Shown here in pieces: positions 18,152-52,671 of a stretch of DNA of 52,671 bases. Position numbers and translations under genes: made by a program. The notes beneath the pieces are model-generated. The model was not told the origin of the DNA, did not search any database, and saw only the letters and a list, made by a program, of their open reading frames with translations. This DNA is from Actinobacteria bacterium 69-20. Lineage in GTDB: Bacteria > Actinomycetota > Actinomycetes > Mycobacteriales > Nakamurellaceae. Every line of letters starts with the position of its first letter. Positions within the stretch are counted from its first letter, which is position 1. The stretch spans positions 1-52,671 of the forward strand of contig MKSW01000028.1 in NCBI GenBank assembly GCA_001897425.1, read 5' to 3'.

Positions 18152-18435
18152 GGTTCGACTCCGTTCCGGTCGCCGTCTGCCTGCCCCGTTGCGGCTCCGC
18201 CGCCTCTCCGGGTCATGCTCGTGCGTGCGCTCACGGTACGTGACGCGACGGCAGGCTGCAGAACTGCGCGAATACCGCTTCGCCCTGGACCGTGCGACCT
18301 CTCCGGGTATTGTTCCGCACATGCGGTGATCGGGGTATGGCTGTTTTCCATGGGATTCGACGCGGATATGGGATTTCACGGCAGGCAGCGACGCCGGCGG
18401 GATCCGCTGACCTGCAGTTGAGGATTGGATGCGCC
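18152..18435. other. Divergent intergenic region, VWA protein / HTH-membrane protein
   Basis: This 284-bp gap separates divergent genes. CCTCTCCGGGT occurs twice (about 18210 and 18299). A TATTGT hexamer near 18308 could be a -10 for the rightward gene. No gene or strong operator is visible. Confidence 0.4.
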
Positions 18436-19281: not shown

Positions 19282-19395
19282 CGCTGCGGCGAGGCGAGCA
19301 AAGTCGCGTCGAGATTGAAGGTGCATCTCATGGCCTTCTCACCCACGGCGTCTTGCGTGGAGGTCGTACAACGAACCCTCACACGGGGATGGTGA

Positions 19396-34836: not shown

Positions 34837-36269
34837 GGCCGGCTCGCGAATGGGCTCAGGTGGCGCCCGAGGTAGTCCGCCAGGGCTTGACTGTAGGCGT
34901 CGTCATACTCGGTGAGCACCTCCCGGAGCGCCACGTCGATCGGGCTCGCCGCACCTGCCGCCGTGCGCAGTGCGGCACCGTATCCGACATGCAGGATCTG
35001 GCGGGTGGCGGGGGTATCAAGCAGTGATGGAAGGTCCTTGTCGGCAACGGAAGTCGGGTCCGGTACGGATTTGAGATCGGCGGACACGTAGTAGCTCGCG
35101 CGCGCCGCGCGGTAAGCGCTGACGCTCGCGGCGTAGATCCGGCGAAACAGCGCAGGGTCGAACCGCGCCGCAACGCCGAGGGCCACCAGATAACTGGTGC
35201 CCGACGTCTTCAGATGCACGAGCCCACCGGTCGCCTCCATCACCCCTGCATAGATGCTGAACTTGTCCGAGCCGGAATGCATCCCGATCTTGTACGGACC
35301 GAGCGCTGCAGCGATCCCGGCGTGCGTGCGAATGCTCGCGAACAGCGCGTCGCGGTCGCCCGCGAATTCCACGCCCTTCTCGAATGTTCCGAGGTGCCGT
35401 GGCGCGAAGCTCACCCAGTGCACACCGAGCCGCGCCAGTTCGGTCGCGATGTAGAGATGTTCCGCCGCCGTGGTGGGCTCGTCGGTCTCGTCGACGGCGA
35501 TCTCCACCTCGACCTCGTGGCGCGCGCGGTCCATGAGGTGGCGGTACATCGCGGCGCCTTCGGCGACGGCGCGCCCATATTTCGCCATGGCGTGCGCGAG
35601 ATCGGCGTCGCTGACGGCGATCTCGCACGTACCGGCGTCGACTCGCAGCTCGGCATAGCGTCGCCGCGCGGCGGGGAGGCTGTCTTCCAGCTGCTCCCAT
35701 GGCAGACCTGCCAGATCGCGCTCAGTGGGGGTGCCTGCGTGCGCGGTGACGAAGTCGCCGACATCGATGGTGAATAGAGTGAATCCAGCCTCGAGGCAAC
35801 GATCGATGTCCGCGGTCGTCTTGAGGTGATCGGCATCCGCCCCGACGGCGCCGTGCCACCCGGCCTGGATGCAGCCGAACGTGGCGTCGTCCAGCACCTG
35901 CTGCGGGCTTCGACCCAGCCGGTCCATCTCGCGAATCGACTGTTGCGCGAAAATCGGCTGAACGCCTTGCCCGTAGGCCCGGAAGGCGGCTACATGCCCG
36001 GGAGTGGCGAGCCCAAGTCGATCTCCGGTACCGGCCGAGGTGCGCAGGCCGATCGGACGCGGGCGGAGCGACAGATTCGCGTCGCGCGCCGCCGCCGCAT
36101 TGTGCGCCGACAGCGGCCCCGTCAATCGGTAGCGTTCGCCAGCCGCCTCGGCGGCATCTTCGACGGTGCCTTCGAAGGCCGCGAGCGCGCGCGCATCGAA
36201 GGCTTCCACCGTGAGCCGGCGGCGGGTGCCGTGTCCGGTGATGCCGAGTTCAACGTTCACGGACGTCAC
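34833..36269 (-). CDS. uxaE: Tagaturonate epimerase family protein (UxaE-like)
   Basis: The 478-residue protein has the blocks of the UxaE family: GDRLGLATPGHVAAFRAYG, PIFAQQSIREM, the GADADHLKTTADID segment and IDVGDF, then KIGMHSGSDKFS and HLKTSGTSYLVAL. UxaE, described in Thermotoga, epimerises D-tagaturonate to D-fructuronate, joining galacturonate use to the mannonate branch. The GTG start at 36269 overlaps the stop of the NagB-like gene (GTGA). Its presence between the SDR and the isomerase suggests galacturonate or a related acid is the food source. Confidence 0.82.
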   Translation of the reverse strand: MTSVNVELGITGHGTRRRLTVEAFDARALAAFEGTVEDAAEAAGERYRLTGPLSAHNAAAARDANLSLRPRPIGLRTSAGTGDRLGLATPGHVAAFRAYGQGVQPIFAQQSIREMDRLGRSPQQVLDDATFGCIQAGWHGAVGADADHLKTTADIDRCLEAGFTLFTIDVGDFVTAHAGTPTERDLAGLPWEQLEDSLPAARRRYAELRVDAGTCEIAVSDADLAHAMAKYGRAVAEGAAMYRHLMDRARHEVEVEIAVDETDEPTTAAEHLYIATELARLGVHWVSFAPRHLGTFEKGVEFAGDRDALFASIRTHAGIAAALGPYKIGMHSGSDKFSIYAGVMEATGGLVHLKTSGTSYLVALGVAARFDPALFRRIYAASVSAYRAARASYYVSADLKSVPDPTSVADKDLPSLLDTPATRQILHVGYGAALRTAAGAASPIDVALREVLTEYDDAYSQALADYLGRHLSPFASRP

Positions 36270-37042
36270 GCTGGAGACAGCTCCTTCGCCGAGTCCCGGT
36301 CCAAGAACACCCGCGCCTGTGGCTGGCTCTGCAAGATCGACGCCGGACAGTCCGGGCTGATCGGCCCTTCCAACGCGGCGCGCACGGCCGCAGCCTTGCG
36401 CGCCTCCGGGACGGCAACCAGCACGGTGCGCGCGTGCAGCAGCGCCGGGATGGTGAGACTCAGCGCCTGCCTGGGCATGTCGTCGATAGATGCGAAGTGG
36501 CCCTCGCCGACCTGCTGACGGCGCGATACGTCGTCCATGGTGACGATGCGGACCAGATCGGTGGTGTCGAAGTCGGCCGGCGGGTCATTGAAGGCGAGGT
36601 GTCCGTTCTCCCCTATTCCCATGACGGTGACGGCCGGGTCAAGGTCGCGCAGCAGTTCCGAATAGCGTCGGAGCTCTTCGTCGATCGGCACGTGGTCGCC
36701 CACGACCCCCTCAAAACTCTTGGGGTGCACCCGATCGACGATGTTTTCGTGCATCCAGCGGCGGAAGCTCGCCGGATGGTCCGCGGCCATGCCCAGGTAC
36801 TCGTCCATGTGTAGCACCGTGATCCGCGACCACTCGATGTCGTCCCGTGCGGCGACCGCGCGCGCGAAGCTCAGCTGCGAGTTGCCCGTCGCAAGGATCA
36901 CCGCGATCGACTCCCGCTGCGCCAGCTCGCGCCGCGCCGCCTCCGCGAACACCTCGGCGACCGCTTCGCCGAGTTCTTCGTTCGTTTCGTAGATCGAGAC
37001 GGCGAGGTCTTTGTAGGTCGACTCCCGGAGTGGCTCATGCAT
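36266..37042 (-). CDS. NagB/6-phosphogluconolactonase-family isomerase or deaminase
   Basis: The 258-residue protein has the NagB/Pgl fold signatures: a phosphate-type loop VILATGNSQLSFARAV (about 48-63), LHMDEYLGM near 76-84, and the deaminase-like GIGENGHLAFNDPP near 132-145 with His in the active-site loop. It looks closer to glucosamine-6-phosphate deaminases than to lactonases. Its job in a uronate operon is unclear; it may act on an amino sugar acid or a lactone. ATG 37042 is chosen (GAGGA 8 bases upstream); it overlaps the end of the permease gene by 8 bases. Confidence 0.8.
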   Translation of the reverse strand: MHEPLRESTYKDLAVSIYETNEELGEAVAEVFAEAARRELAQRESIAVILATGNSQLSFARAVAARDDIEWSRITVLHMDEYLGMAADHPASFRRWMHENIVDRVHPKSFEGVVGDHVPIDEELRRYSELLRDLDPAVTVMGIGENGHLAFNDPPADFDTTDLVRIVTMDDVSRRQQVGEGHFASIDDMPRQALSLTIPALLHARTVLVAVPEARKAAAVRAALEGPISPDCPASILQSQPQARVFLDRDSAKELSPA

Positions 37043-37922
37043 CAGTTTCTTCCTCATTTCCCTTTGCTTGCGCAACGATTTGTGTCGGGCTCACGTATCT
37101 GAGCGCGATGATGAGGACGATGAGGGTCGTCAACATGTAGATGACAGCCATCGCGCTGATCGCCTGTTCGGGTCGGATGCCGGACGCGAACACGGCGTAA
37201 TAGAGGTCGACGATCAATGTCTGCGAGCCCGGGCCCGAGACCAAGAAGGTCAATTCGAACAATGCCACAGTCTGTATCAGCACCAACAGCGCGGCCGCCA
37301 ACAAGCCCGGTGTCATGAGGGGCGCAAGGATCCTCCGAAATATCTGCCAGGTATTCGCACTGCACATGCGGGCTGCTGACTCGATCTTCGGGTCGATCTG
37401 CTCGACGAATGGGGTGAGCACCAGGATCACGAACGGCACTGCGGGAACAGTGTTCGCGATGATCACGCCTGTCAGGGTGCCGCCGAAGTGAAGTTTGTAC
37501 AGGAGTGTCGCGAGCGGAATCCCGTACGTGATAGGCGGGACCATGATCGGCAGTAGGAAGCCGAGCATCAGCAACTTCTTGCCTGGGAACTGCTTTCTGG
37601 CCAGGACATACGCGGCAGGCGTGCCCAGGACAAGGCCGACCGCCACGACGACGAACGCCACTTCGACCGTCACGATCAAAGCGTCCGCCAGTTGGAAGGA
37701 GCCCCACGCTGTCGCGTAATAGTGGGTTGTCCACCCCTGTGGCAGCCAGCTGTCGAACCACTCGGTTCCGAAGGACGAGACGACAACCGTCCCCACAAGA
37801 CCCAGGAGATTGACGACGAAGAAGGCGATGGCGATCCAGAAGAGCCAACTAGGGACGAATCGCAGGGCTCGCGGTAGCGAGCGCCTCGGGCGCCGGCGGG
37901 TCGGCGTTCCGGTCATGGCCAT
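37035..37922 (-). CDS. ABC transporter permease (PotC/ThiP-like family)
   Basis: The 295-residue protein has six predicted membrane helices and the EAA-type cytoplasmic loop ESAARMCSANTWQIFRRILAP (about 184-204), which contacts the ATPase. It belongs to the 2TM MetI-like permeases of the spermidine/putrescine/iron group. With the next three genes it forms a complete importer, very likely for a sugar acid given the operon. Stop overlaps the NagB-like start. Confidence 0.87.
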   Translation of the reverse strand: MAMTGTPTRRRPRRSLPRALRFVPSWLFWIAIAFFVVNLLGLVGTVVVSSFGTEWFDSWLPQGWTTHYYATAWGSFQLADALIVTVEVAFVVVAVGLVLGTPAAYVLARKQFPGKKLLMLGFLLPIMVPPITYGIPLATLLYKLHFGGTLTGVIIANTVPAVPFVILVLTPFVEQIDPKIESAARMCSANTWQIFRRILAPLMTPGLLAAALLVLIQTVALFELTFLVSGPGSQTLIVDLYYAVFASGIRPEQAISAMAVIYMLTTLIVLIIALRYVSPTQIVAQAKGNEEETDA

Positions 37923-37925
37923 GAC

Positions 37926-38855
37926 TCAGCCCTTTCCGGTCGCCGTGCTGCCGCTGTAGAGGCGACTGCGAAGGCCCAGGACGATCGCGATCATCAGGAG
38001 TTCGACCACAGCCGTGATGACCGAGATAGCAGAGGCCAGCGGGTAATCGTATTGCTGAAAAGCGGCGTTGGCCGCCGCGACCGCGAGGACATGTGAGTCG
38101 CCGGACGGGTTTCCGAGCAGCGTCGCCGACGGGAAGACGGAAAACGCCAATACGAACGTGAGGCAGAACGTATTGGCGATACCAGGGCTGAGAAGCGGCA
38201 GAGTGATCCGGAAGAATCGCTGGCTCGCACCGGCGCCCAGGGTTCTCGCGGCAGCATCCATCGCTGGATTGATTCCAGAGACATAGGAGAGGATGAGCAG
38301 GAACGCGAACGGAAAGCCGGTGATAATGAGAGATATGATCACTCCCCACATGTTGTGCAGGAGCGGTAGCGGTTTATCTGTCAGGCCGATACCCATCAGG
38401 ATGCGGTTGACCCACCCGCGCGGGCCGAGGTAGTTCAACAGCCCCTCGGCCACGAGCACCGTACCGAGCGTGATCGGAGTGACAAGAAGGACATTCACGA
38501 TTCGTTGCGAGCGCTTCCGTCGCCGCATCGCGAGCGCGAGCGGGATGGCGGCAACGACGTTGAATATGGAGGCCGGGAGCGCAATGGAAAAGGTGTGTCC
38601 AATCGTGCCCCGTAGGAATGGGTCGAAAAAGAAGCGCACGTAGTTCCCGAGGAACCCGGAATGGTCCATCGGCTGAAATGACAACACGATCCCGTACACG
38701 GACGGGTATATGAACAGCAGCACGAGGAACAGGAACGCGGGAGCCACCAACCACAAGAGCCGATCGATTCCGCGGTCTCGGAGCCGGTGCCGCCAGGAGG
38801 GCTGCGCACTCGGCGCCTGAACGCGAGGGAGGTCCAGCGTGCCCATACTGCTCAC
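37926..38855 (-). CDS. ABC transporter permease (PotB-like family)
   Basis: The 309-residue protein has six membrane helices and an EAA loop MDAAARTLGAGASQRFFRIT (about 198-217). It pairs with the downstream permease as a heterodimer. Its start overlaps the ATPase stop by four bases (38852-38855), and only three bases separate it from the second permease, so the unit is translationally coupled. Confidence 0.88.
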   Translation of the reverse strand: MSSMGTLDLPRVQAPSAQPSWRHRLRDRGIDRLLWLVAPAFLFLVLLFIYPSVYGIVLSFQPMDHSGFLGNYVRFFFDPFLRGTIGHTFSIALPASIFNVVAAIPLALAMRRRKRSQRIVNVLLVTPITLGTVLVAEGLLNYLGPRGWVNRILMGIGLTDKPLPLLHNMWGVIISLIITGFPFAFLLILSYVSGINPAMDAAARTLGAGASQRFFRITLPLLSPGIANTFCLTFVLAFSVFPSATLLGNPSGDSHVLAVAAANAAFQQYDYPLASAISVITAVVELLMIAIVLGLRSRLYSGSTATGKG

Positions 38856-39967
38856 ACGGTCTCCCGCTCATGGATCGGGTCGCGCCGACTCTCGTCGGCC
38901 TCGGGATCCGCCCCGGCCGCGTAGACCATCACGTGGTCGCGCGGAACGTTGACGACCACCTGGTCGCCTGCGGTCACGCGTTGGTTGATCCTGGCGAAGA
39001 GGGAGGTGGTCTCGTTCACCTCGATTTCGATTTCGTAATCACGGCCCTGGTATTCAACCGTTCGTACGACACCTGGAATGTCATTGACGCCCGTCCTGCC
39101 GAGCGTCAGGCCATCCGGTCGAATGGCGACGGTGGCCTGACCGCGCACCGTACCGTTGGCGACAAGCTCGATTCCGCCGCCGGAGAGTCGGGTCAGTGTT
39201 GGATCGCCCTCCACGGGCCCGGCCACCATCGACAGCTGGTTCCGGTAACCCATGAAGTCCGCGACGAAGGCATTGGCCGGGCGTGCGTACACCTCTTCAG
39301 GTGCGCCAGCCTGCTGCATGCGCCCGTTCCGCAGAACGACGAGCCGGTCGGCAAGCGATAGCGCCTCCTCCTGGTCGTGGGTCACATAGACAGTCGTGAG
39401 GTTGAGCTCCCGGTGGAGCCGGCGGAGTTCGGTCCGCATCTCATGCCGCAATTTGGCGTCGAGATTCGACAGCGGCTCGTCCATCAGAACCAACTTCGGT
39501 TCCATCACGATCGCTCGCGCTATCGCGACACGCTGCTGCTGCCCACCGGAGAGTTGGTTCGGCCGTTTATCACCGTGCTCGGTCAGGTGAATGAGGTCGA
39601 GTGCCCAGTCCACCTTCCGCACGATCTCGTGCCGCGACACCCGCTGCATCTGCAGACCGAACGCGATATTCTTCCGAACCGACATATGTGGGAATAGTGC
39701 ATAGTTCTGGAACACCATCCCGAAGCCCCGCCGCTCGGGTGGCAGCAGGTCCACACGCTCGTCATCCAGATAGATCGCTCCCGCCGTGAGCGGCAGCAGA
39801 CCTGCGAGACAATTGAGCGTCGTGGACTTGCCGCACCCCGACGGCCCCAAGAGAGCTACGAACTCACCGTTCCGAATGGTCAGGCTGAAGTCCGCGAGGG
39901 CGGTCACACCCTTGAACTGTCGGCTGACTGCTGCCAGCTCGAGTTTTGTGAAGGCCAACGCTGACAC
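38852..39967 (-). CDS. ABC transporter ATPase (PotA/UgpC-like)
   Basis: The 371-residue ATPase has Walker A GPSGCGKST, Q-loop FQNYALFPHM, signature LSGGQQQRVAIARAI, Walker B VLMDEPLSNLD and the switch histidine in YVTHDQEEA. A C-terminal TOBE-type regulatory domain follows from about residue 240. It drives import by the two permeases. The GTG start lies 10 bases after the stop of the binding-protein gene. Confidence 0.92.
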   Translation of the reverse strand: MSALAFTKLELAAVSRQFKGVTALADFSLTIRNGEFVALLGPSGCGKSTTLNCLAGLLPLTAGAIYLDDERVDLLPPERRGFGMVFQNYALFPHMSVRKNIAFGLQMQRVSRHEIVRKVDWALDLIHLTEHGDKRPNQLSGGQQQRVAIARAIVMEPKLVLMDEPLSNLDAKLRHEMRTELRRLHRELNLTTVYVTHDQEEALSLADRLVVLRNGRMQQAGAPEEVYARPANAFVADFMGYRNQLSMVAGPVEGDPTLTRLSGGGIELVANGTVRGQATVAIRPDGLTLGRTGVNDIPGVVRTVEYQGRDYEIEIEVNETTSLFARINQRVTAGDQVVVNVPRDHVMVYAAGADPEADESRRDPIHERETV

Positions 39968-39976
39968 AGTCCATTC

Positions 39977-41203
39977 CTACTTCTGGAGCTTCTGACCGCC
40001 GATTTCCCTGTCCCATTTGTCGAACATCTTGGCCAGCGCATCATTGCTCAGCGGCGGAACTGCCTTGAACTTGGGCAAGAGTTCGTCGTATGTCGACGTG
40101 CGTCCGTACTTGTGGATCACGTCCTGGCTCTCCTTCGGCGCCATATCGAGCGTGACACCCTTCACCGCCGGGCCTGGATACATGTACCCCGTGTCATATG
40201 CCTTGGCTTGCTGTTCGGGCGAAAGCATCCACTTGATGAGGTCCAGAATCACGGCGAGTTTGTCCGCCGACTCGCCCTTGGGCACGGTGATGTAGCTCGA
40301 GTCCATGATCCAGGAGGTTCCGTCAAGGGCGACGACGTCGGCTCCTTCCGGAACGGTCCCGATAGCACGCGCGTTGATGTCCCAACCCGTCGTGGTGGCC
40401 ACCATCTTTGTGGAACCGTTCGCCAGAGCCTTCATCGTTGCCGTGGTCCCAGACGGGTAGAACGAGATGTACTGGCCCAATTCCTTGAGGTAGCTCCACG
40501 TCTTGTCCCAGCCGTTGATCGGATCCGAGGGGTCCTTGTCGCCGAGTATGTACGGGAGCCCCTGCACAAAGGCGCGACCGGGTCCCGAATTCGCGGGCTG
40601 CGCATACATGAACTGCCCCGGGTTCGCTTTCGCCCAGGCCAACAGCGCGTCGGCAGTGGTCGGTGGATCCGTCACGGTCCCCGGCATGAACTCGAGCAGC
40701 GGCCCGTAGTCACCGAAGTCATTGACGGTCGCGTAGCCGTCTGTCATGTCGAACAGTTGTTTCGCGCCGGGCTGGTAGGTGTCGACGGCTGCACCGATCT
40801 GCTTCTGGTAGTCGGGATACAGCTTCAGGAAGACTCCGGCGTTGACACCGAGGCCCAGCGCATCGTTCCCGGTCAGGACGATGTCGATCTGGTTGGCGCC
40901 GGCCGCCTGCTGAGCCTTGAGTTTGCTGACGATCTGTGTGGCATCACCGGTATCGAAGTTCACCTTGGCGAGGTACTGAGGGAACTTCTTCATGTACGCC
41001 TCGATCATCGGCTGAGCAACCTGCATATCGCCGGCCACGTCCACGAGATTCAAAGTGACCGGCGAGGAAGGCATCTTGAGTTCGTCCGCCGTGACGGCCT
41101 TGGACGAATCGCCGCTCGAGCTACCCGACGAGCACGCCGCCACCGTCATCACCAGGGCAAGCGCCACTGATCCCGCGACGAGTTTCCGTATGTTCCTCAA
41201 CAT
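39977..41203 (-). CDS. ABC transporter extracellular solute-binding lipoprotein
   Basis: The 408-residue protein begins with a lipoprotein signal peptide: basic start, hydrophobic core, and lipobox VAAC with Cys24, then a Ser/Gly linker. The rest is a PotD/SBP_bac_8-type binding fold (for example NQIDIVLTGNDALGLG and PSGTTATMKALANGSTKM). It would capture the substrate outside and hand it to the permeases. GGAGAAGAGG precedes the ATG. First gene of the operon, 160 bases downstream of the nearer LacI operator. The ligand is probably a uronate or oligouronide. Confidence 0.88.
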   Translation of the reverse strand: MLRNIRKLVAGSVALALVMTVAACSSGSSSGDSSKAVTADELKMPSSPVTLNLVDVAGDMQVAQPMIEAYMKKFPQYLAKVNFDTGDATQIVSKLKAQQAAGANQIDIVLTGNDALGLGVNAGVFLKLYPDYQKQIGAAVDTYQPGAKQLFDMTDGYATVNDFGDYGPLLEFMPGTVTDPPTTADALLAWAKANPGQFMYAQPANSGPGRAFVQGLPYILGDKDPSDPINGWDKTWSYLKELGQYISFYPSGTTATMKALANGSTKMVATTTGWDINARAIGTVPEGADVVALDGTSWIMDSSYITVPKGESADKLAVILDLIKWMLSPEQQAKAYDTGYMYPGPAVKGVTLDMAPKESQDVIHKYGRTSTYDELLPKFKAVPPLSNDALAKMFDKWDREIGGQKLQK

Positions 41204-44910: not shown

Positions 44911-47900
44911 ATGCGTCTTTCGATCACGGGGACCCGCAGGCCGCTGTCCGGCACCGTGCGCGTGCCCAATTCCAAGTACCACGCCCACCGCGCGTTGATC
45001 CTGGCGTCGCTGGCGCCGGGGACCAGCACCATCATCGGCCTCACCCAGGCCAAACATGTGGCGTACACGGTCGACCTGCTGCGCGGCCTCGGTGTGCGCG
45101 TCGTCCGCCGCGGCGATCGGTTCGTCATAGACGGTGGCGGTTACCACCCGGTCAGTGACGTGGTGAGCGCGGGCAGTTCGGGGAGCACGCTGTATTTCAC
45201 CCTCGGGCTGGCCTGCCTGGCCGACGCGCCGATCACCGTCACCGGCCAGAAGTACTTCCGGCGCCGCCCGGTCGCGCCCCTGCTCCGCGCGCTGACCGAG
45301 ATGGGCGTGCGGCTGGACTCGGCGGACGGCTGCCCGCCGGTACGCGTCCGGCCCGGGCGGCCGACCGGCGGGACGGTGCACATCTCGGGCTCGCTGTCGC
45401 AATGGATCTCGGGCCTGCTGCTGCTGGCGCCGTTCGCGACCGGACGGACCGTGATCGAGATCGATGACGAGCCGAACGAGCGCCCGTACCTGAAGCTCAC
45501 CGTCGACATGATGCGAAAATTCGGCCTGACGGTGGCGCATTCGGCGGATTGGCGGCGCTTCGAGATCGAGCCGGACCAGCAGGCGGTGCCCACCACCATC
45601 CAGCTGCCACCGGATCTCGGCTCCGCGGCGTTCGGGTTCGCGACGGCCGCGCTGCACCCGTCGGACATCGTGTTCCAGGGCCTGCCCTCGCTGCACGCCG
45701 CGGACCATCCGGAGGCTGCCGTGCTGGACATCGTGCAGCGCATGGGGTTGTCGCTGACGGCCGGCCCTGAGGCGACCGTGCGCGCCCGGCACGACGGATC
45801 CCGGCTCGCGCCGACCACGATGGACTGCCGGGACATCCCCGATCTGCTCCCGGTGCTCTCCGCGATGGCGGCGTTCGCGGACGGGACCACGGTGTTCGAG
45901 AACATCAGCCACGTGCGGCTGAAGGAATCCGATCGCGCGTCGGCGATGCTGCAGCTGAATCGGATGGGCGCCGATCTGGAACTTCAGGGCGATCGCCTTG
46001 TGGTGCACGGGGTCCCGAGTTTGCGCGGCGCGGACGTGTCCAGCTTCAACGACCACCGGGTGCTCATGTCGCTCGCGGTGGCGGCCACCCGCGCGATCGG
46101 GCGGACCACGCTCACCTACCCCAACGCCTACCGGATCTCCTACCCCGAGTTCCTGGACGCGATGACGACGATCGGGTTGGACATGGCCGTGCAGCCGGGG
46201 GCGGCTCCGTCTGCGGGGCGCCGGGCCGGGCCGTCGCCCGCGCGCATCTCCGATGTGCGTCGGACCCCGGACCAGTGGGTGCGCCGCTGGGCGACGGAGC
46301 GGCCGCACGACGTGGCGCTGGTGGACGTGCGGCCCGGGCGGATGCGCTCCTACACCTGGCAGGAGATCGTGGAGCGCGCCGACCGGCTGGCGTCCGCGCT
46401 GCTCGGGCTGGGGGTGCAGCCGGGCGAGCGGGTCGCCTACCAACTGCCGAACTGGTGCGAGTTCGTGGTGGTGTCGCTGGCGACCATGCAGATCGGCGCG
46501 GTGTGCTGCCCGCTGATGCCGATCTTCCGGCAGCGTGAGGTCTCTTTCGCCCTACGCCGGTCCGCGGCCCGGGTGCTGGTGATCCCGCAGGAGTTCCGCG
46601 GGCGCAACTACGTGACGGAGACGGCGGCGATGGTCGCGGAGGCGGCTGCCGGGTCCGTTGGCGGGGACGACGGCGACTCGCTGGCCCTGCAGCACGTGGT
46701 CGTGGTCCCGGCGTCGGACGCGGACTCTGATTCGGGTACGGCCGGGCCGGCGGAGATCGCCGCTCCGCTGTGGGGTGGCGGATCGGTGGTGTGGCACAGC
46801 TACCCCGAGTTGATGGCGGGCGCCGAGGTCAATGCCGATCTGCTGGCGTCACGTCGGCCCACCGCGGAGATGACGGCGCAGCTCCTGTTCACCTCTGGCA
46901 CGTCCGGCGAGCCGAAGGGTGTCCTGCACCGGTTCGAGGCGCTGACCCGCGCGGCGCTCATGGAGGCCGAGCACCTGGGCCTGTCGGCGCGGGACGCCAT
47001 CTACATCCCGTCCCCGCTCGCGCACCAGACGGGCTTCCTATACGGGATGTGGCTGGCGCTGGTGCTCGGCTCACGACAGGTGATCCAGGGCATCTGGAAC
47101 GGGTCCCACGCGCTGCGCGTGCTGCGCGAGACGCGATGCACGTTCGTGCAGGCGGCGACGCCGTTCCTGGCCGACCTGGTGACCGCGGTGGGCGACGGCG
47201 ACCGGCCGCCGACCGACCTGCGCATCTTCGTCGCGACCGGTGCCGCCGTGCCGCGCGGGCTCGCGGAACGGGCCACCCGGCAACTGGGCACGGCGGTGTG
47301 CGGCGCCTGGGGCACCACCGAAACCTGCCTCGGCACGCTGTCCGCTCCGGGCGACGAGCCGGTGAAGGTGTGGGGCACGGACGGGCGGCCGCTGCGCGGT
47401 ATCGACGTGCGCATCACCGATGACGAGGGGCGCGTCCTGCCTGTGGGTACGGAGGGCAATTTCGAGTTGCGCGGGCCGACGTTCTTCACCGGCTACCTGG
47501 ATCGGCCGGACTGGACCGCCGCGGCCCTCACCGCGGACGGTTTCTTCCGCACCGGTGATCTCGGCATCTTGGACGCCGACGGGTATATCCGCATCAGCGG
47601 CCGGGTGAAGGATGTGATCAACCGGGGCGGGGAGAAGGTGCCCGTCGCCGAGATCGAGCAGATCCTGTACGACCATCCGGCGGTGCAGGACGTGGCCATC
47701 GTGGCCATGCCGGACGATCGGCTCGGCGAACGCGCCTGCGCCTTCGTCGCGCTCCGACCGCACACGGACCTGTCGTTCCAGGGGATGCAGAAGCTGCTCG
47801 ACGCTCACCAGGTGTCGAAGCACTATTGGCCGGAACGCCTCGAGGTGATCGACAGGATGCCCCGGAATGCGGCGGGCAAGATCCAGAAGTTCGCATTGCG

Positions 47901-47952
47901 GGAACGGGCGCGCGGACTGCGCCCGCAGACGGAGGAGGAGCTCGACAGGTGA
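44911..47952 (+). CDS. EPSP-synthase-like / acyl-CoA ligase fusion (PlmJK-like)
   Basis: The 1013-residue protein joins an EPSP-synthase fold (about 1-427) to an acyl-adenylating ligase (about 455-1010) by an Ala/Pro/Arg linker. In the first half Lys22, Arg27, Arg119, Asp308, Lys338, Glu339 and Asp381-His-Arg are kept. Ser23 is Tyr, the PEP-binding Arg of the NAGTAMR motif is Ser92, and the late Lys is Ile409, so ordinary EPSP chemistry is doubtful. The ligase has TSGTSGEPKG (661-670), GTTE, RTGDLG and catalytic Lys990. A similar fusion is known from cyclohexanecarboxyl-CoA (CHC-CoA) loci (PlmJK of phoslactomycin). It probably dehydrates shikimate and activates the product as CoA thioester. 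GTGA links it to the next gene. Confidence 0.85.
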   Translation: MRLSITGTRRPLSGTVRVPNSKYHAHRALILASLAPGTSTIIGLTQAKHVAYTVDLLRGLGVRVVRRGDRFVIDGGGYHPVSDVVSAGSSGSTLYFTLGLACLADAPITVTGQKYFRRRPVAPLLRALTEMGVRLDSADGCPPVRVRPGRPTGGTVHISGSLSQWISGLLLLAPFATGRTVIEIDDEPNERPYLKLTVDMMRKFGLTVAHSADWRRFEIEPDQQAVPTTIQLPPDLGSAAFGFATAALHPSDIVFQGLPSLHAADHPEAAVLDIVQRMGLSLTAGPEATVRARHDGSRLAPTTMDCRDIPDLLPVLSAMAAFADGTTVFENISHVRLKESDRASAMLQLNRMGADLELQGDRLVVHGVPSLRGADVSSFNDHRVLMSLAVAATRAIGRTTLTYPNAYRISYPEFLDAMTTIGLDMAVQPGAAPSAGRRAGPSPARISDVRRTPDQWVRRWATERPHDVALVDVRPGRMRSYTWQEIVERADRLASALLGLGVQPGERVAYQLPNWCEFVVVSLATMQIGAVCCPLMPIFRQREVSFALRRSAARVLVIPQEFRGRNYVTETAAMVAEAAAGSVGGDDGDSLALQHVVVVPASDADSDSGTAGPAEIAAPLWGGGSVVWHSYPELMAGAEVNADLLASRRPTAEMTAQLLFTSGTSGEPKGVLHRFEALTRAALMEAEHLGLSARDAIYIPSPLAHQTGFLYGMWLALVLGSRQVIQGIWNGSHALRVLRETRCTFVQAATPFLADLVTAVGDGDRPPTDLRIFVATGAAVPRGLAERATRQLGTAVCGAWGTTETCLGTLSAPGDEPVKVWGTDGRPLRGIDVRITDDEGRVLPVGTEGNFELRGPTFFTGYLDRPDWTAAALTADGFFRTGDLGILDADGYIRISGRVKDVINRGGEKVPVAEIEQILYDHPAVQDVAIVAMPDDRLGERACAFVALRPHTDLSFQGMQKLLDAHQVSKHYWPERLEVIDRMPRNAAGKIQKFALRERARGLRPQTEEELDR

Positions 47953-49181
47953 CGGCCGGACATCTCACAGCAGCGACCGCAGGGACCACCGCAGCGACCG
48001 CAGAAAGCCCGCCGGCGGGGTCCGGTGCGGGAGACCCGGTTACATTCAAAGACATGCTCGCCGACGTCCGCGGTTTCGTCACCGGGCCGGGCGAGCGCTA
48101 CGCCGAACGGATCGAACGCGACGGGGCCGTGCCGCCAGACCTGTGGTCGGACTTGAAGTCTCGCGGATACCTGTCGCTGGCGGCGCCGCTCGAGTACGGG
48201 GGCCGGGGCGTGCCGTTCAGCAAGTACCTGGAGCTGATGGAGTGGTTCGCGAGGTCGCACGGCTCGATCCGCATGATCGTGCACGTGGTGAACGGGATCT
48301 GGCGGGCCATCGATCAATTTGCCACCGCGGAGCAGCGGCGCCGCTTCGTGCTGCCGGTGGTGGCGGGCGATATCCGCGTCGCCTTCACGTTGACCGAACC
48401 GACCGCCGGCACCGGCGCGGACCTGCGCTGCTCCGTCGAACGCGATGGGGACACGTACTACCTGTCCGGCGAGAAGCACATGATCACCTTCGGCGTGAAC
48501 TGCGACTACTGGCTGCTGTTCGCGCGCGTCGCAGGGACTCTCGGCGCCGACGGGACCGTTGCGCTGATGGTGCCCCGGGACGTTCCCGGCGTCGCCGTGC
48601 AGAGCATGGCCGAGACCATGGGCGTGCACGGCACCGACCACGCCCACCTGGTCTTCGACCGGGCGCCCGTGCCGGTAGCCAACAGGCTCGGCGCGGCGGG
48701 CGACGGGCTGCAGGTCGCGTTGGGCGGGTTCCTGGTGCCCAGCCGCATCTCGGTGGCCATGAGCTGCGTCGGCCTCGCCCGCCGGGCGCAGGAACTCGCC
48801 GTGCACCGGGCCACCCAGCGGGTGACGTTCGGCAAGCCCCTCTCGCAGCGGCAGGCGATCTCCTTCGCGCTCGCCGAGAACGCGGCGGACATCGAAGCGG
48901 CCCGCGCGCTGGTCCTACACGCGGCGCACGAATGGGAGGCCGGCAGCGACCGGGCACCCGTGCTCTCGTCCATGGCGAAGCTGGTGGCTGTGGACATGCT
49001 CACCCGGGTGACGGACAAGGCACTGCAGGTGCACGGCGGCCTCGGCTACTGGTCGTCCAGCCCGATCGAGCGGGTGTACCGGGACGCCCGGGCGCAACGG
49101 TTCGAGGAGGGCACCAACGAGATCCAGAAGACGGTGATCGCCCGCGATCTGTTCGCGCACGCCGCGGAGATGACGTGGTGA
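47949..49181 (+). CDS. Acyl-CoA dehydrogenase
   Basis: The 410-residue FAD enzyme has the family blocks RVAFTLTEPTAGTGADL and LSGEKHMITFG, the long C-terminal helices (RVTFGKPLSQRQAISFALAE) and LQVHGGLGYWSSSPIERVYRDAR. The catalytic-base region is RFEEGTNEIQ. The first 30 residues are a low-complexity Ala/Thr tail; the conserved part starts near ATG 48054, an alternative start. Within a CHC-CoA-type pathway such an enzyme would act on ring-bearing acyl-CoA intermediates. GTGA overlaps at both ends tie it to its neighbours. Confidence 0.88.
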   Translation: MTAGHLTAATAGTTAATAESPPAGSGAGDPVTFKDMLADVRGFVTGPGERYAERIERDGAVPPDLWSDLKSRGYLSLAAPLEYGGRGVPFSKYLELMEWFARSHGSIRMIVHVVNGIWRAIDQFATAEQRRRFVLPVVAGDIRVAFTLTEPTAGTGADLRCSVERDGDTYYLSGEKHMITFGVNCDYWLLFARVAGTLGADGTVALMVPRDVPGVAVQSMAETMGVHGTDHAHLVFDRAPVPVANRLGAAGDGLQVALGGFLVPSRISVAMSCVGLARRAQELAVHRATQRVTFGKPLSQRQAISFALAENAADIEAARALVLHAAHEWEAGSDRAPVLSSMAKLVAVDMLTRVTDKALQVHGGLGYWSSSPIERVYRDARAQRFEEGTNEIQKTVIARDLFAHAAEMTW

Positions 49182-50038
49182 CGGGCTCCGCCGACGGCAC
49201 GGCCGGCCCCCTCGGCGGCTCCCCCGACATGCCGACCGGCCCGTTCGCTGGAACGGTCACGCTGATCACCGGCGCCTCGCGGGGAATCGGCCGCTCGCTG
49301 GCACTCTCGCTGGCCGCGGACGGCGGGGCGGTGGTGATCAACTATAAGAAGAACGCGGACCTGGCCGAGCAGACCCTGGCCGACGTGCGGGCGATGGGCG
49401 GCAGCGGGATCTGCGTGCAGGCCGACGTCGAGCAGCCGGAGGACATCGACCGGCTGTTCGCCGCGGCCGCGGCGGAGTTCGGCCGGTTGGACTTCTTCAT
49501 CTCCAACGCGGCGGCCAGTTCGTTCAAGAAGATCCTCGACCTCGGCCCGCACCACCTCGACCGCTCCTTCGCGATGAACGTGCGCGCGTTCGTGCTCGGC
49601 GCGCAGCGGGCCGTGCCGTTGATGGACCGTGGCGGTCGCATCGTGGCCCTGTCCAGCTACGGGAGCGCCCGCGCCTACCCCACCTACGCGAACCTCGGTT
49701 CCGCCAAGGCGGCGATCGAGGCGTGGGTGCGGTACATGGCCGTCGAGTTCGCCCCGCACGGCATCAATGTGAACGCCGTCAACGGCGGGATCATCGAATC
49801 CGACTCGTCGAAATACTTCTATGACGTCCCCGGCATGCCCCCGCTGGACGACGTGCTGGCGAAGGTGCCGAAGGGCCGAATGGGCACCGTGCGGGAGGTC
49901 TCCGACGCCGTGCTGTTCCTGCTGTCCCGCGCCTCGGAGTACATCACCGGCCAGGTGCTGGTGGTCGACGGCGGCCTGTCCGTGGTCGCGCCACCGTTCT
50001 ACTCGGACGCCGGGCCGGAGCTGGCGCTGGATGTGTGA
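49178..50038 (+). CDS. SDR enoyl-thioester reductase, ChcA/FabL-like
   Basis: The 286-residue SDR has TGASRGIG (31-38), then NYKKNADLAEQ and SNAAASSFKKILDLGPHHL. The active site is Tyr170-x6-Lys177 (TYANLGSAK) rather than the Tyr-x3-Lys of ketoreductases; Y-x6-K is the mark of enoyl reductases such as FabI and FabL. From memory this pattern matches ChcA, the 1-cyclohexenylcarbonyl-CoA reductase of Streptomyces collinus, which reduces ring double bonds using NADPH. The N-terminal 24 residues are a Gly/Pro tail. It overlaps the dehydrogenase by GTGA and the next gene by 8 bases. Confidence 0.84.
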   Translation: MTGSADGTAGPLGGSPDMPTGPFAGTVTLITGASRGIGRSLALSLAADGGAVVINYKKNADLAEQTLADVRAMGGSGICVQADVEQPEDIDRLFAAAAAEFGRLDFFISNAAASSFKKILDLGPHHLDRSFAMNVRAFVLGAQRAVPLMDRGGRIVALSSYGSARAYPTYANLGSAKAAIEAWVRYMAVEFAPHGINVNAVNGGIIESDSSKYFYDVPGMPPLDDVLAKVPKGRMGTVREVSDAVLFLLSRASEYITGQVLVVDGGLSVVAPPFYSDAGPELALDV

Positions 50039-52238
50039 CGGGACCGCTGAGGGGATCTCTGAGCGGGCCGCCGCGGGGGCACCGGACGGAATGCCTGACG
50101 CGGTCTTCACGCCGGGCCGGATCGGCACGCTGCGTCTGCCGCATCGCATCGTGATGGGGTCGATGCACCTCGGCGTGGAGCGCGAACCCGGCTGTCGACA
50201 GGCGGCAGCGTTCTATGCGGCGCGGGCCCGCGGCGGCGCCGGGCTGATCGTGACCGGCGGCTGGGCCGTGAGCCCGGCGGGGGCAGGCGGCGCGGACTAC
50301 GGCATGGTCAATGACCCGGCCTGCCACCCTGGCCTCGCCCACATCGCGCGCGAGGTGCACGACGCGGGCGGATTCGTTGCGCTGCAACTGTTTCACGCCG
50401 GGCGATACGGCTCTAAATCGTTCTTCGGCGCTCCGCCGGTCGCGCCGTCTGCCGCTTCTTCCGTCATGTCGAGCCGCTTCCGTACGGAACCGCCCGAGGT
50501 TCTCGACGCGGCCGGGATCGCCGCGACCATCGAGGATTTCGCCCGTGCCGCCGCGACGGCGCGGGCGCTCGGATTCGACGCCGTGGAGCTGATGGGCTCG
50601 GAAGGCTATCTGCTGAACCAGTTCTGCTCCCCGCTCACCAACCTGCGCGACGACGCCTACGGCGGAGACGCGGCCCGACGACGCGCCTTCCCGCTGTCCG
50701 TACTCGCCGCGGTGCGGGCGTCGGTCGGCCCGGACTTCCCGGTGCTCTATCGGATGTCCGGCGCGGACCTGATGGATGGCTCCACCGCTCATGACGAAAC
50801 CCTCGATCTGGCACGAGCTCTCGCGGCAGGCGGGGCCGATGCGTTGAACATCGGCATCGGTTGGCACGAGTCGGCCGTGCCCACCGTGCAGGCCGTGGTG
50901 CCCGGCGGGGTGTGGAGCCCATTCGCCGCTTCCGTCCGCCGCGCCCTGTCTGCCGACCCGCACACCGCTTCCACGGTGGTGATCTCGGGCAATCGGATCA
51001 ACAGGCTGAGCCAGGCGCGGGAGATCCTCGCCGCCGGGGCGGCGGACTTCGTGTCCATGTCCCGGCCGTGGCTTTCCGACCCCAACCTGATCCGTGCGGC
51101 CCAGACCGGCCGCACCGTCAACATCTGCATCGGCTGCGACCAGGCGTGCATCGACCGGTCGCTGGTCGGCGAGCGCGTCTCCTGCCTGGTCAATCCCTCC
51201 GCGGGCTTCGAGGCCGACGGCCCGGCGTCCACGGCCCGGCCCGGCGCGCGCTACGTCGTCATCGGCGGTGGACCCGCGGGCCTCGCCGCGGCCCGGGAAC
51301 TCGCGCTGGCCGGGGCGCAGGTGACCCTGTTCGAGGCCGAACCCGAACTGGGCGGCCAGTTCCGGCTCGCGCGACTGGTGCCCGGCAAGCACGACTACGG
51401 CGGCACCATCGACTTCTACGCGGAGCAGTTGCGCGAGCTCGGCGTGACGGTGTCGCTCGGCCGCCCGATCGGCGCGGGCGACGCCACTGCCCGCGACGCC
51501 GCCCTGGACGGCGCCGACGCGGTGGTGCTCGCGACGGGGGTTCACCCGCGCACCGTGTCGATACCCGGAATGAGCGCACCGGGATCCGTTCCCTTGCTGA
51601 GCTACCCGGAGGCCTTCGCACGGCGAGACGATCTCGGCGAGCGGGTCGCGATCATCGGCGGCGGGGGTATCGCCGTCGACCTGGCGCACCTGCTCGCGCA
51701 TCCGAGCGCCGTCACCCCCGATTTCGACGACGGCGACCCGGGCCGAATCCGCGCCGCCCGCGCGCGGTTCGCAGCCGATCACCGACTGCCGGATCCCGGC
51801 GGCGCCAACTGCTGGGGGGCGCCCGATGCGGCGCTCGACACCGCGCCCGACACACCGACCGGGCAGGCGCCCCCACGTTCGGTGACGGTGATGCGGCGCT
51901 CCGGCAAGATCGGCGCCGGCCTCGGCCGCACCATGCGCTGGGTCGTGGTCGGCGAATTGCGCCGCGCGGGAGTACGGACGATCACCGGCGTGCGCTACCG
52001 CCGGATCACCGGCGAAGGGGTCGAGATCCTCACGGAGGGCGGGCCGGAGACGATCGCCGCGGACGTCGTCGTGGTGGCCGCCGGCCAGCTGCCGAACGAC
52101 GGCCTGGCCGCGGACCTGCGTCGCGCCGGTGCGCCGTTCCGCGTCATCGGCGGCGCCCGCAGAACCGAGAACCTCGACGCCGTGCGGGCTTTCGCCGAGG
52201 GCCGGGCCGCCGCGCGCGACCTGCTGGTAAGTATGTGA
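50031..52238 (+). CDS. 2,4-Dienoyl-CoA reductase-like flavoenzyme (FadH family)
   Basis: The 735-residue protein has a TIM-barrel old-yellow-enzyme domain (about 22-360) for FMN. An iron-sulfur cluster motif follows with Cys366, Cys369, Cys373 and Cys385, then an FAD-binding fold (VVIGGGPAGLAAARELALAG) and an NAD(P)H fold (VAIIGGGGIAVDLAHLLAH). This is the complete FadH layout (about 670 residues in E. coli). A FadH-like enzyme (AnsM/PlmM type) belongs to CHC-CoA pathways, reducing conjugated ring dienoyl-CoA. ATG 50031 overlaps the SDR stop; ATG 50091 is an alternative that starts nearer the barrel. Confidence 0.87.
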   Translation: MCDGTAEGISERAAAGAPDGMPDAVFTPGRIGTLRLPHRIVMGSMHLGVEREPGCRQAAAFYAARARGGAGLIVTGGWAVSPAGAGGADYGMVNDPACHPGLAHIAREVHDAGGFVALQLFHAGRYGSKSFFGAPPVAPSAASSVMSSRFRTEPPEVLDAAGIAATIEDFARAAATARALGFDAVELMGSEGYLLNQFCSPLTNLRDDAYGGDAARRRAFPLSVLAAVRASVGPDFPVLYRMSGADLMDGSTAHDETLDLARALAAGGADALNIGIGWHESAVPTVQAVVPGGVWSPFAASVRRALSADPHTASTVVISGNRINRLSQAREILAAGAADFVSMSRPWLSDPNLIRAAQTGRTVNICIGCDQACIDRSLVGERVSCLVNPSAGFEADGPASTARPGARYVVIGGGPAGLAAARELALAGAQVTLFEAEPELGGQFRLARLVPGKHDYGGTIDFYAEQLRELGVTVSLGRPIGAGDATARDAALDGADAVVLATGVHPRTVSIPGMSAPGSVPLLSYPEAFARRDDLGERVAIIGGGGIAVDLAHLLAHPSAVTPDFDDGDPGRIRAARARFAADHRLPDPGGANCWGAPDAALDTAPDTPTGQAPPRSVTVMRRSGKIGAGLGRTMRWVVVGELRRAGVRTITGVRYRRITGEGVEILTEGGPETIAADVVVVAAGQLPNDGLAADLRRAGAPFRVIGGARRTENLDAVRAFAEGRAAARDLLVSM

Positions 52239-52258: not shown

Positions 52259-52492
52259 ATGTCAACGACCCTCCACGTGCCGGAAGACCTGGCCGCCCGA
52301 CTCGCTGTTGAGGCACGCCGCCGCGGGGTCGACGTCGATGCGTTATCGGCCGAACTCCTGTCCGCAGGCCTCGCCGACAACGAGCTGGAGGCGTTCATCG
52401 GTGTCGGACGATCCGGTCGCAGTGATCTCGGCCGACGGCATCGCGCGATCAAGGCGGAACTCGTCGGAGACCGGTCGGCTCGCGACCTGTGA
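52259..52492 (+). CDS. vapB: VapB-type antitoxin
   Basis: The 77-residue protein opens with STTLHVPEDLAARLAVEARR, a ribbon-helix-helix-like DNA-binding N-terminus. A short acidic/basic tail follows with FIGVGRSGRSDLGRRH, as seen in mycobacterial VapB antitoxins. It would bind and neutralise VapC and repress the operon. GGAGGT sits directly before the ATG, and the stop overlaps the vapC start (GTGA). Confidence 0.78.
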   Translation: MSTTLHVPEDLAARLAVEARRRGVDVDALSAELLSAGLADNELEAFIGVGRSGRSDLGRRHRAIKAELVGDRSARDL

Positions 52493-52671
52493 TCGTCATC
52501 GTCGACACCGGCGTACTGCTGGCTGCTGCCGACGCGGACGACGCCGACCACGAGCCGTGCGCCGAGTTGTTGCGTGAGCACCGCGGTCGGCTGTGGGTAC
52601 CGGCGCCAGTCGTGCCGGAATGCTCCTGGCAGGTTAAACGCCACCTAGGGCGTGTCTCCCATAGGTTTGGG
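52489..52671 (+). CDS. vapC: VapC PIN-domain toxin, 5' part (runs off window)
   Basis: The frame gives VIVIVDTGVLLAAAD with PIN acidic Asp6, then HEPCAELLREH and VPAPVVPEC with Glu44, the first two of the metal-binding acids. VapC toxins are RNases that cleave tRNA or rRNA. Only 61 residues are inside the window. After KRHLG the sequence no longer resembles a PIN domain; the DNA there reads GGGCGTGTCTCCC, which may be the end of an inserted element. Whether the toxin is intact cannot be told here. Confidence 0.7.
   Translation, partial: MIVIVDTGVLLAAADADDADHEPCAELLREHRGRLWVPAPVVPECSWQVKRHLGRVSHRFG

Follow-up and report, generated by a model that had tools for sequence, protein, structure and literature searches.

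Four overlapping genes lie at the end of the window (the whole stretch of DNA analysed, 52,671 nucleotides), and the contig stops 433 bases past the fourth. The features are as follows.

44911..47952, forward strand: EPSP-synthase-like/acyl-CoA ligase fusion, PlmJK-like, 1013 aa (from ORFs, Pfam and NCBIfam)
44911..46200, forward strand: EPSP-like domain of the fusion, about residues 1-425 (from residue alignment)
46246..47949, forward strand: acyl-CoA ligase domain of the fusion, about residues 450-1000; nearest curated model cyclohexanecarboxylate-CoA ligase, below its cut-off
47949..49181, forward strand, GTG start: acyl-CoA dehydrogenase (ACAD), PlmL/AnsL-like, with the Glu in an FEEGT motif
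49178 (or 49175)..50038, forward strand, GTG start: short-chain dehydrogenase/reductase (SDR) with Y-x6-K, ChcA-like enoyl-CoA reductase
50031 (or 50091)..52238, forward strand, ATG start: FadH/2,4-dienoyl-CoA-reductase-like flavoprotein, PlmM/AnsM-like

ORFs, junctions and Pfam domains all agree with the earlier note, which had described these four genes as overlapping. The fusion/ACAD junction (ORFs and junction sequence) and the ACAD/SDR junction (junction sequence) are both GTGA overlaps, and the start of the FadH-like gene overlaps the SDR stop. In Pfam the fusion divides into EPSP_synthase (residues 10-418, 287 bits) and AMP-binding (residues 458-863, 233 bits); the ACAD has N, M and C domains, the SDR is adh_short_C2 (209 bits) and the FadH-like protein combines Oxidored_FMN with Pyr_redox_2. 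The Y-x6-K of the SDR is conserved without exception across the 52 SDRs aligned, and the FadH-like protein keeps Tyr193, His279 and four Fe-S-type cysteines. Searches of solved structures gave one match for the SDR at E 1e-40, annotated as enoyl-ACP reductase and FabL by NCBIfam, and none for the ligase domain at E 1e-60. All the parts of a cyclohexanecarboxyl-CoA (CHC-CoA) cassette are thus present (EPSP-like protein plus CoA ligase, ACAD, Y-x6-K SDR and FadH-like flavoprotein), in the order JK-L-ChcA-M on a single strand.

The EPSP-like domain shares the Pfam family and the catalytic residues of EPSP synthase (AroA) and passes the NCBIfam aroA cut-off (307.7 versus 287.25 bits), but it lacks the side chains that bind shikimate-3-phosphate (positions assigned after PMC12256929). 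Y23, Y95 and E190 stand where true AroA has S23, R100 and S197, and a one-residue deletion precedes S163, where true AroA has S169. The replacement of R100 by Tyr and of S197 by Glu and the absence of S169 are found in 77 of 77 aligned family members, whereas S23, R100, S169 and S197 are retained in 18 of 18 true AroA proteins. Catalytic K22, D311 and E339, with R342 and R383, are retained in the fusion, as are K22/D313/E341 and R124/R344/R386 (E. coli numbering) in the family. Opposite E. coli K411 the residue varies with the alignment used (Ile in 77 of 77 in one; Arg in 74, Gln in 2 and Glu in 1 in another). Since every one of the 77 domains has lost the shikimate-3-phosphate pocket yet keeps the catalytic residues, free shikimate is likely to be the substrate, judged by sequence.

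Most of 78 relatives match the fusion over its full or nearly full length. A second Nakamurella genome carries the same set in the same order (87-95% identical). PKS-type neighbours were found at 12 of the 78 loci surveyed, all in Streptomyces and in three clades; the other carriers belong to several actinobacterial families, the Eremiobacterota and Gammaproteobacteria MAGs, and include many Arthrobacter strains. Against four cassettes inside PKS-type antibiotic clusters (L092, L098, L099 and L102) the fusion has 57-59% identity in the best segment, with about 1000 aa matched, and falls in a common tree, so the two are homologous. A DAHP synthase gene diverges from the operon in nine of 12 Eremiobacterota loci (L032 scanned), the other three being cut off before that position, and a wax-ester/DGAT-family gene lies downstream of the cassette in L083. 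In genome G014 the contig continues for 16.5 kb past the cassette and holds no called gene long enough for a PKS module; neighbours in relatives' loci, here and around FabF2 (below), come from a simple gene caller that misses or splits some genes (the ketosynthase of L104, for example, was found by tblastn). No phage record matched the fusion at E 1e-100. Of the plasmid records, 47 matched at E 1e-50, none over 80% of the fusion, and the 20 of the 47 that were listed match the ligase domain only.

The host is a soil-type, Nakamurella-like actinobacterium, available as a 43-contig draft of 98% completeness. FabF and FabH genes lie close together on another contig (C3), a type II FAS whose FabH may be able to take the starter unit. 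A genome-wide search for the ketoacyl-synthase family gave five matches, two long and FabF-type, three weak and short; this search revealed neither a modular PKS nor a type I FAS, and no PKS gene was seen within the window. The earlier note's guess at a fatty-acid primer gains from the type II FabF and FabH, from this lack of a modular PKS or type I FAS and from the FabF2/LIG2 pair described next, while the note's mycolate-type alternative finds no support among the ketosynthases. Ten enoyl-CoA hydratase-family (PF00378) matches occur in the genome, none on the contig of the cassette and none distinguishable as ChcB.

On contig C32 a second FabF-type ketosynthase (FabF2) adjoins a ligase (LIG2). 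Both families also adjoin the cassette in non-PKS Streptomyces. Aligned with structures of FabF (beta-ketoacyl-ACP synthase II), FabF2 matches from end to end, but it differs from FabF in three respects. It scores below the NCBIfam fabF cut-off (TIGR03150, 478.9 versus 493.75 bits), passing only the broader subfamily PRK07314 (465 versus 387). It groups with cassette-linked ketosynthases in a single clade (14 rows, SH-aLRT 100) apart from the host's own FabF, in a tree where row L111, a bad 113-aa sequence on a very long branch, lies outside the clade used and a long-branch join was flagged elsewhere. At E. coli position 203 (Met counted) it has Leu instead of Phe, as do 30 of 30 FabF2 and 12 of 12 of the other cassette-linked ketosynthase type, against none of ten ordinary FabF. 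LIG2 hit only generic acyl-CoA ligase models among the 25 matches listed, all below cut-off, and no solved structure at E 1e-60. It adjoins FabF2 in 16 of 17 fetched places, and wherever the cassette of a fetched genome is without an SDR gene (five genomes), one lies beside the pair.

Among 37 cassette genomes, FabF2 is present in 22 of the 25 without PKS-type neighbours and in none of the 12 with them; for LIG2 the counts are 23 of 25 and 0 of 12. Culturable carriers of FabF2 include Streptomyces albus NRRL B-1811 and Arthrobacter koreensis DSM 16760. Restricted to non-PKS genomes in which no adjacent ketosynthase had been seen beforehand, FabF2 occurs in 16 of 19. Fisher tests, which ignore relatedness, give p 2.5e-7 (FabF2), 4.9e-8 (LIG2) and 3.2e-6 (the subset). 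The contrast is not independent, because the cassettes with PKS-type neighbours come from three Streptomyces clades; a tree-aware comparison leaves no more than two independent pairs (sign test p 0.5). Within the host's genus the fusion, FabF2 and LIG2 each occur in two of 17 genomes, the identical two. In a survey of 394 Actinomycetes that scored just a few top candidates from each genome, the cassette is found in three; FabF2 occurs in two of these and in none of the other 391, and LIG2 also appears in one of those 391 cassette-free genomes (G155).

We propose that the cassette probably converts shikimate to CHC-CoA, which would prime the type II FAS to give omega-cyclohexyl fatty acids, with FabF2 and LIG2 as partners of this fatty-acid branch. 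The EPSP-like domain would remove a ring hydroxyl from free shikimate by 1,4-elimination and the ligase domain would form the CoA ester. The FadH-like enzyme, the ACAD and the SDR would then reduce and dehydrate the ring, with a ChcB-like isomerase presumably encoded elsewhere. FabF2 may extend the bulky cyclohexyl chain and LIG2 may activate the ring acid or the chain. In its favour we count the phoslactomycin-type gene order, the doramectin cassette and the asukamycin fatty acids (see below), the DAHP synthase neighbours, the residues of the EPSP-like domain, the co-occurrence and co-location of FabF2 and LIG2, the FabF2 clade and the type II FabF/FabH. Against it we count the position of FabF2 and LIG2 on a different contig from the cassette, with no demonstrable physical link; the tree-aware result; the LIG2 of G155; the absence of FabF2 from two Sinomonas genomes and M. 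elymi and of LIG2 from S. albus B-1811 and an Acidothermus MAG; and the lack of a ChcB pick among the ten hydratase-family matches. The fatty acids reported from Arthrobacter are anteiso-branched and are not known to include cyclohexyl chains, which is also counted against.

Alternatively, the ring acyl-CoA made by these genes could be one that is only partly reduced, or hydroxylated, or it could be CHC-CoA destined for a small metabolite other than a lipid, built by FabF2 and LIG2. Such an outcome would suit the smallness of the FabF2/LIG2 pair, beside which gene calls recognise no ACP or FabH, and the purely generic, sub-threshold matches of LIG2 among those listed; moreover, sequence does not reveal the ring reductions and no ChcB is linked. 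We consider it unlikely, as the four CHC enzymes stand in the published order with their motif residues conserved, no other gene family is a regular neighbour of FabF2 at most of the 17 places fetched and the wax-ester/DGAT-family gene of L083 fits a lipid fate. That the cassette feeds a PKS missing from the assembly is suggested by the contig end just past it, the fragmented draft and the existence of PKS-linked cassettes. The high completeness with no type I ketosynthase found, the further 16.5 kb of G014 with no module-sized gene and the presence in the host of FabF2, absent from 12 of 12 PKS-type genomes, make this very unlikely.

The earlier note had held that closest homologues in degradation would speak against its reading. 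The model for degradative cyclohexanecarboxylate-CoA ligase does give the ligase domain its top score, and that for cyclohexane-1-carbonyl-CoA dehydrogenase ranks third for the ACAD, but both scores lie far below the curated cut-offs (485.6 versus 792.3 bits for the ligase), and the neighbours of relatives include DAHP synthase genes and antibiotic clusters. No degradative function of an EPSP-like domain is known to us. The aliA-aliB-badK-badH-badI set, the cyclohexanecarboxylate route as outlined in PMC9795900, is absent from the surroundings of the cassette. That these genes serve to degrade cyclohexanecarboxylate or benzoate is therefore highly improbable, and the outcome that the earlier note named as refuting its reading did not occur.

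Taking the fatty-acid reading further, we speculate that CHC-CoA serves a branch with dedicated machinery. Such a branch would occur in Actinomycetota and also, with another upstream ketosynthase of only distant relationship, in Eremiobacterota and a number of Gammaproteobacteria MAGs. LIG2 would load an acyl carrier with the ring acid, and FabF2 would catalyse the initial condensation or other early ones in place of FabH. The EPSP-like domain would be a shikimate dehydratase in which Glu190, at the place of AroA's 3-phosphate, protonates the leaving C3 hydroxyl, and PKS antibiotics would have borrowed the cassette from the lipid pathway within Streptomyces. This combination is doubtful as a whole.

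CHC-CoA genes are known from antibiotic producers. What is new here is probable FAS-type partners for the known cassette: two genes, FabF2 and LIG2, are named for its non-PKS form. In the part of the open literature covered, which was searched under other terms, no publication describing such a FabF-type partner turned up, and we do not claim that none exists. Omega-cyclohexyl lipids are predicted in culturable genera that, to our knowledge, are not known for them, and an old enzymological question, how an EPSP-synthase-like protein acts on shikimate without the phosphate pocket, becomes testable.

Among known systems, the cassette of S. rishiriensis L099 and four other Streptomyces has the same four-gene order and AHBA-type neighbours (L099 scanned), and we take these loci to be ansatrienin/mycotrienin ansJ-M plus chcA. 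They differ from the present one in their AHBA-type, adenylation-carrier-thioesterase and class II DAHP synthase genes, and neither FabF2 nor LIG2 was found in those five genomes. L043, L075 and L085, presumably asukamycin-type CHC starter supply, share cassette genes (no OYE was found in L043 and L085), but immediately upstream they carry two genes of FabH type and a small one of ACP size (L085 scanned), and no FabF2 or LIG2 of the type found here occurs in their genomes. In the asukamycin producer, CHC-CoA is also converted to omega-cyclohexyl fatty acids, as far as PMC4147253 describes, and S. avermitilis with an introduced CHC-CoA gene cassette makes doramectin without CHC feeding, according to the accounts in PMC6164871 and PMC4581413. 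A modular PKS, its domains scanned at one locus, stands next to the cassette in some Streptomyces; L092, L098 and L102 have the PKS before it and a regulator after it, the phoslactomycin-type order, and L093 is without a called OYE. The closest likeness is to lactomycin/phoslactomycin, whose plmJK-plmL-ChcA-plmM genes (lmP1-lmP4), with a single JK gene, lie between PKS and regulator genes in Table 2 of PMC5852498. The window has the same four functions, order and fused JK, which, with the PKS- and AHBA-linked cassettes of Streptomyces, bears out the earlier note's reading of a CHC-CoA cassette; it differs in a host with no PKS found and with an unlinked FabF2/LIG2 pair. The predicted product class, omega-cyclohexyl fatty acids, is that of Alicyclobacillus, as mentioned in PMC10562698, and of Curtobacterium, known to us from a cited title.

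The four overlapping genes claimed by the earlier note are borne out by the ORF coordinates and by the overlaps of starts and stops, and its protein names for them agree with Pfam and NCBIfam. Together they form what we call the cassette:

44911-47952, + strand, fusion of an EPSP-synthase-like domain and a CoA ligase (PlmJK-like)
GTG start at 47949 (within the fusion stop), + strand, acyl-CoA dehydrogenase (ACAD)
GTG start at 49178 (within the ACAD stop), + strand, SDR (ChcA-like)
ATG start at 50031 (across the SDR stop) to 52238, + strand, FadH-like flavoprotein (PlmM-like)

Residues that we take, from general family knowledge, to be catalytic are conserved among the aligned family members: Tyr and Lys of the SDR Y-x6-K motif in 52/52, the ACAD Glu in 65/66 (the remaining one has a gap), and Tyr, His and four Cys of the FadH-like protein in 54/54. 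Among solved structures, the SDR is closest to an enoyl-ACP reductase and the FadH-like protein to a 2,4-dienoyl-CoA reductase. Beyond the cassette the contig, which ends at 52671, holds one short ORF and one cut-off ORF (52260-52671); these presumably resemble a VapB/VapC-type antitoxin and a PIN toxin, and the short ORF has no Pfam match.

Searching contigs with the fusion as query identified 78 loci, including a few partial ones. EPSP-like domains from the window and 76 of these loci (broken L091 and partial L105 were omitted) were aligned with 18 true AroA sequences, from E. coli, the host and, for the other 16, the genus. In E. coli numbering, all 77 EPSP-like domains have Y23, H49, Y100 and E197 and lack one residue at 169, whereas all 18 AroA have S23, D49, R100, S169 and S197. 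K22, R27, R124, Q171, E341, R344 and R386 are retained in 77/77, as are D313 and K340 of E. coli, where the AroA of the genus have E and H. An excerpt of PMC12256929 describes the shikimate-3-phosphate (S3P) phosphate of tobacco EPSPS as bound by Lys358, Arg105, Ser206 and the Ser179 backbone, and E. coli Asp313, Glu341 and Lys22 as catalytically important. By numbering order and our alignment, tobacco Arg105 and Ser206 are E. coli R100 and S197. The alignment thus indicates that the S3P phosphate pocket is dismantled, with a negative Glu in its place, and that the catalytic set, much of the PEP site and one phosphate ligand, K340, are retained. Because the pocket appears lost and the catalytic set kept, we infer that the domain acts on free shikimate. 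The presence of R124, R344, R386 and T/S97 favours an anionic species in the PEP site, and the D49H exchange argues against ordinary PEP binding. Overall the domain still scores above the NCBIfam aroA cut-off (307.7 vs 287.25). Shikimate 1,4-elimination at C3 is known from labelling work.

The host genome (4.48 Mb, 43 contigs, 98% complete) has as its closest named relative the Nakamurella MAG JAFIHI010000200.1 (95% in the fusion). The earlier note had proposed looking for PKS genes elsewhere in the genome; a genome-wide ketosynthase (KS)-domain search found no modular PKS, and no type I FAS. Since neither was found and one FabH and one FabF lie near each other on contig C3, host fatty acids are presumably made by a type II FAS. 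Genome-wide, the remaining KS content is three weak KS-domain matches and a second FabF-type KS (FabF2), which lies on contig C32 beside a ligase (LIG2):

C32:24725-26014, host FabF2 (P0003)
C32:22741-24402, host LIG2 (P0004), divergent to FabF2

Window bases 5-53 (49 bases) are identical to the end of C32 (45554-45506); the orientation suggests that the two contigs leave the same repeat and are not joined. Comparison with the second Nakamurella cassette carrier (G014) showed that window 35664-41101 (∼ 5.4 kb, including ABC transporter-like genes) is unmatched at the corresponding place in G014:C105 (junction near 20450), and that transporter-looking genes at G014:C105 10448-14499, named mostly by eye, are missing at that place in the window. 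This carrier also has, 3′ of its cassette:

G014:C105 32585-35506 (L030 about 17689-20610), strand opposite the cassette, aldo/keto-reductase-looking gene and second FadH/OYE-type gene, the latter 33% identical to the FadH-like protein of the cassette

Host FabF2 and LIG2 are 58-64% and 59-68% identical, respectively, to family members in other genera. In a quick, unrooted tree, with rows picked from cassette loci, the genus and E. coli, host FabF2 falls within a 14-row clade (SH-aLRT 100) that also holds the KS of G014 and KSs linked to cassettes in Streptomyces, Acidothermus and Microbacterium, separate from the host's own FabF and other Nakamurella KSs. Six Streptomyces loci have the cassette followed by a KS of this family and LIG2; other loci have such a KS alone. 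Within the genus, fusion, FabF2 and LIG2 each occur in 2/17 genomes, the identical pair; in G010 the fusion matched over its ligase part only. Within the class, searched with a FabF2 threshold of E up to 1e-110 and with scoring limited to the few top candidates of each genome, the fusion occurs in 3/394 genomes and FabF2 in 2/3 of these and 0/391 others. LIG2 was found in the host and one cassette-free genome, G155 (G155:C24:123532-125166, 61%, in the host's order; cassette and FabF2 both absent at the thresholds used).

Among carriers we sampled 38 of the 78 loci (37 genomes), comprising all 12 of PKS type, the majority of lineages lacking an adjacent KS, and six loci whose cassette was already known to have a KS beside it (L036, L051, L053, L055, L073, L104). 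PKS type means a modular PKS, AHBA-type genes (the PKS itself then lying outside the fetched stretch) or a FabH pair within at most 10 kb per side, less at contig ends. Scores were bimodal (≥ 389 or ≤ 313 bits). FabF2 is present in 22/25 genomes without PKS-type neighbours versus 0/12 with them, and LIG2 in 23/25 versus 0/12, the class of the 25 resting on the fetched stretch, so that a PKS could lie further off. Among these 25, FabF2 was missing from both Sinomonas genomes and M. elymi, and LIG2 from S. albus B-1811 and the Acidothermus MAG; all 25 have at least one of the two. Removal of the six with a previously seen adjacent KS leaves FabF2 in 16/19. Fisher p values are small, but the tree gives just two independent pairs, and the contrast is therefore suggestive, not proven. 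The strongest sign that cassette and LIG2-FabF2 locus serve one pathway, the swapping of a pathway gene between them, is independent of it. LIG2 adjoins FabF2 in 16/17 fetched FabF2 neighbourhoods, and in three Arthrobacter and two Cellulomonas whose cassette lacks the SDR, an SDR 60-65% identical to that of the window sits next to LIG2-FabF2.

Of 12 Eremiobacterota loci, 11 have a KS of another kind (34-42% to FabF2 or FabF) immediately upstream and 9 have a divergent DAHP synthase (one domain-scanned); loci without one or the other are cut off there. Gammaproteobacteria MAGs have a KS immediately upstream in 4/5 loci, the fifth being cut off. Since these KSs group separately from FabF2 in the quick, unrooted tree, whose branches are long, the cassette may have acquired a KS on two or more occasions. 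Position 203 is Leu in 30/30 FabF2 and 12/12 other cassette-linked KSs; ordinary FabF have Phe (Leu in 0/10), which we take to line the acyl pocket.

We propose that shikimate would undergo ring elimination, conversion to the CoA ester, and reductions and dehydrations to cyclohexanecarboxyl-CoA (CHC-CoA), which would prime the FAS, FabF2 and LIG2 serving as its dedicated partners in this. That the cassette leads from shikimate to CHC-CoA is very probable, and a fatty-acid fate is likely; the exact roles of FabF2 and LIG2 are put forward with markedly less confidence. A lipid with a partly reduced ring, or a small metabolite, is another possible product.

Our own gene calls on 81 sequences (the 78 loci, the window and two contigs, one repeating L030) placed an ACAD-family gene in 68 of them, a FadH-like gene in 57 and an SDR in 53, several loci being truncated by contig ends. 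Loci of Specibacter, Arthrobacter and Paenarthrobacter (L057, L061, L063, L065, L066, L095) have a FadA/FadJ-like pair upstream of a cassette in which we detected no FadH-like gene. Arthrobacter cassettes (L058, L064, L067-L069, L071, L072, L079, L084, L097, L103, L107) occupy one conserved site between ribosomal-protein genes and EF-Tu/EF-G, named by eye. The Microbacterium elymi cassette (L091) reads as several broken pieces, in a genome with LIG2 and, at the threshold applied, without FabF2. Two Streptomyces loci (L070, L082) have a lone fusion beside large regulator-like genes; their genomes also hold a cassette, and FabF2, elsewhere (L036, L214). Downstream of the Actinoplanes cassette (L083, 17379-19409) lie an SDR and then, at greater distance, a gene for a wax-ester/DGAT-family protein (199 bits, under the cut-off of 310), which hints at storage lipids as the destination there.

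Three loci (L092, L098, L102) have the lactomycin/phoslactomycin order of PKS, plmJK, plmL, ChcA, plmM and regulator (excerpt of PMC5852498), with a PKS-family gene upstream (PKS domains scanned in L092 only, 3289 aa). AHBA-type genes adjoin the cassette in five Streptomyces, including S. rishiriensis (L099). There the AHBA-associated phosphatase scores above the cut-off of its NCBIfam model, and the aminotransferase and class II DAHP synthase are recognised by Pfam alone. Three others have a pair of FabH-type genes and a small gene of ACP size next to the cassette (L085 domain-scanned). Introduction of a CHC-CoA cassette is reported to have allowed doramectin formation without CHC feeding (passages of PMC6164871 and PMC4581413), and in the asukamycin producer omega-cyclohexyl fatty acids are described as a further destination of CHC-CoA (passage of PMC4147253).
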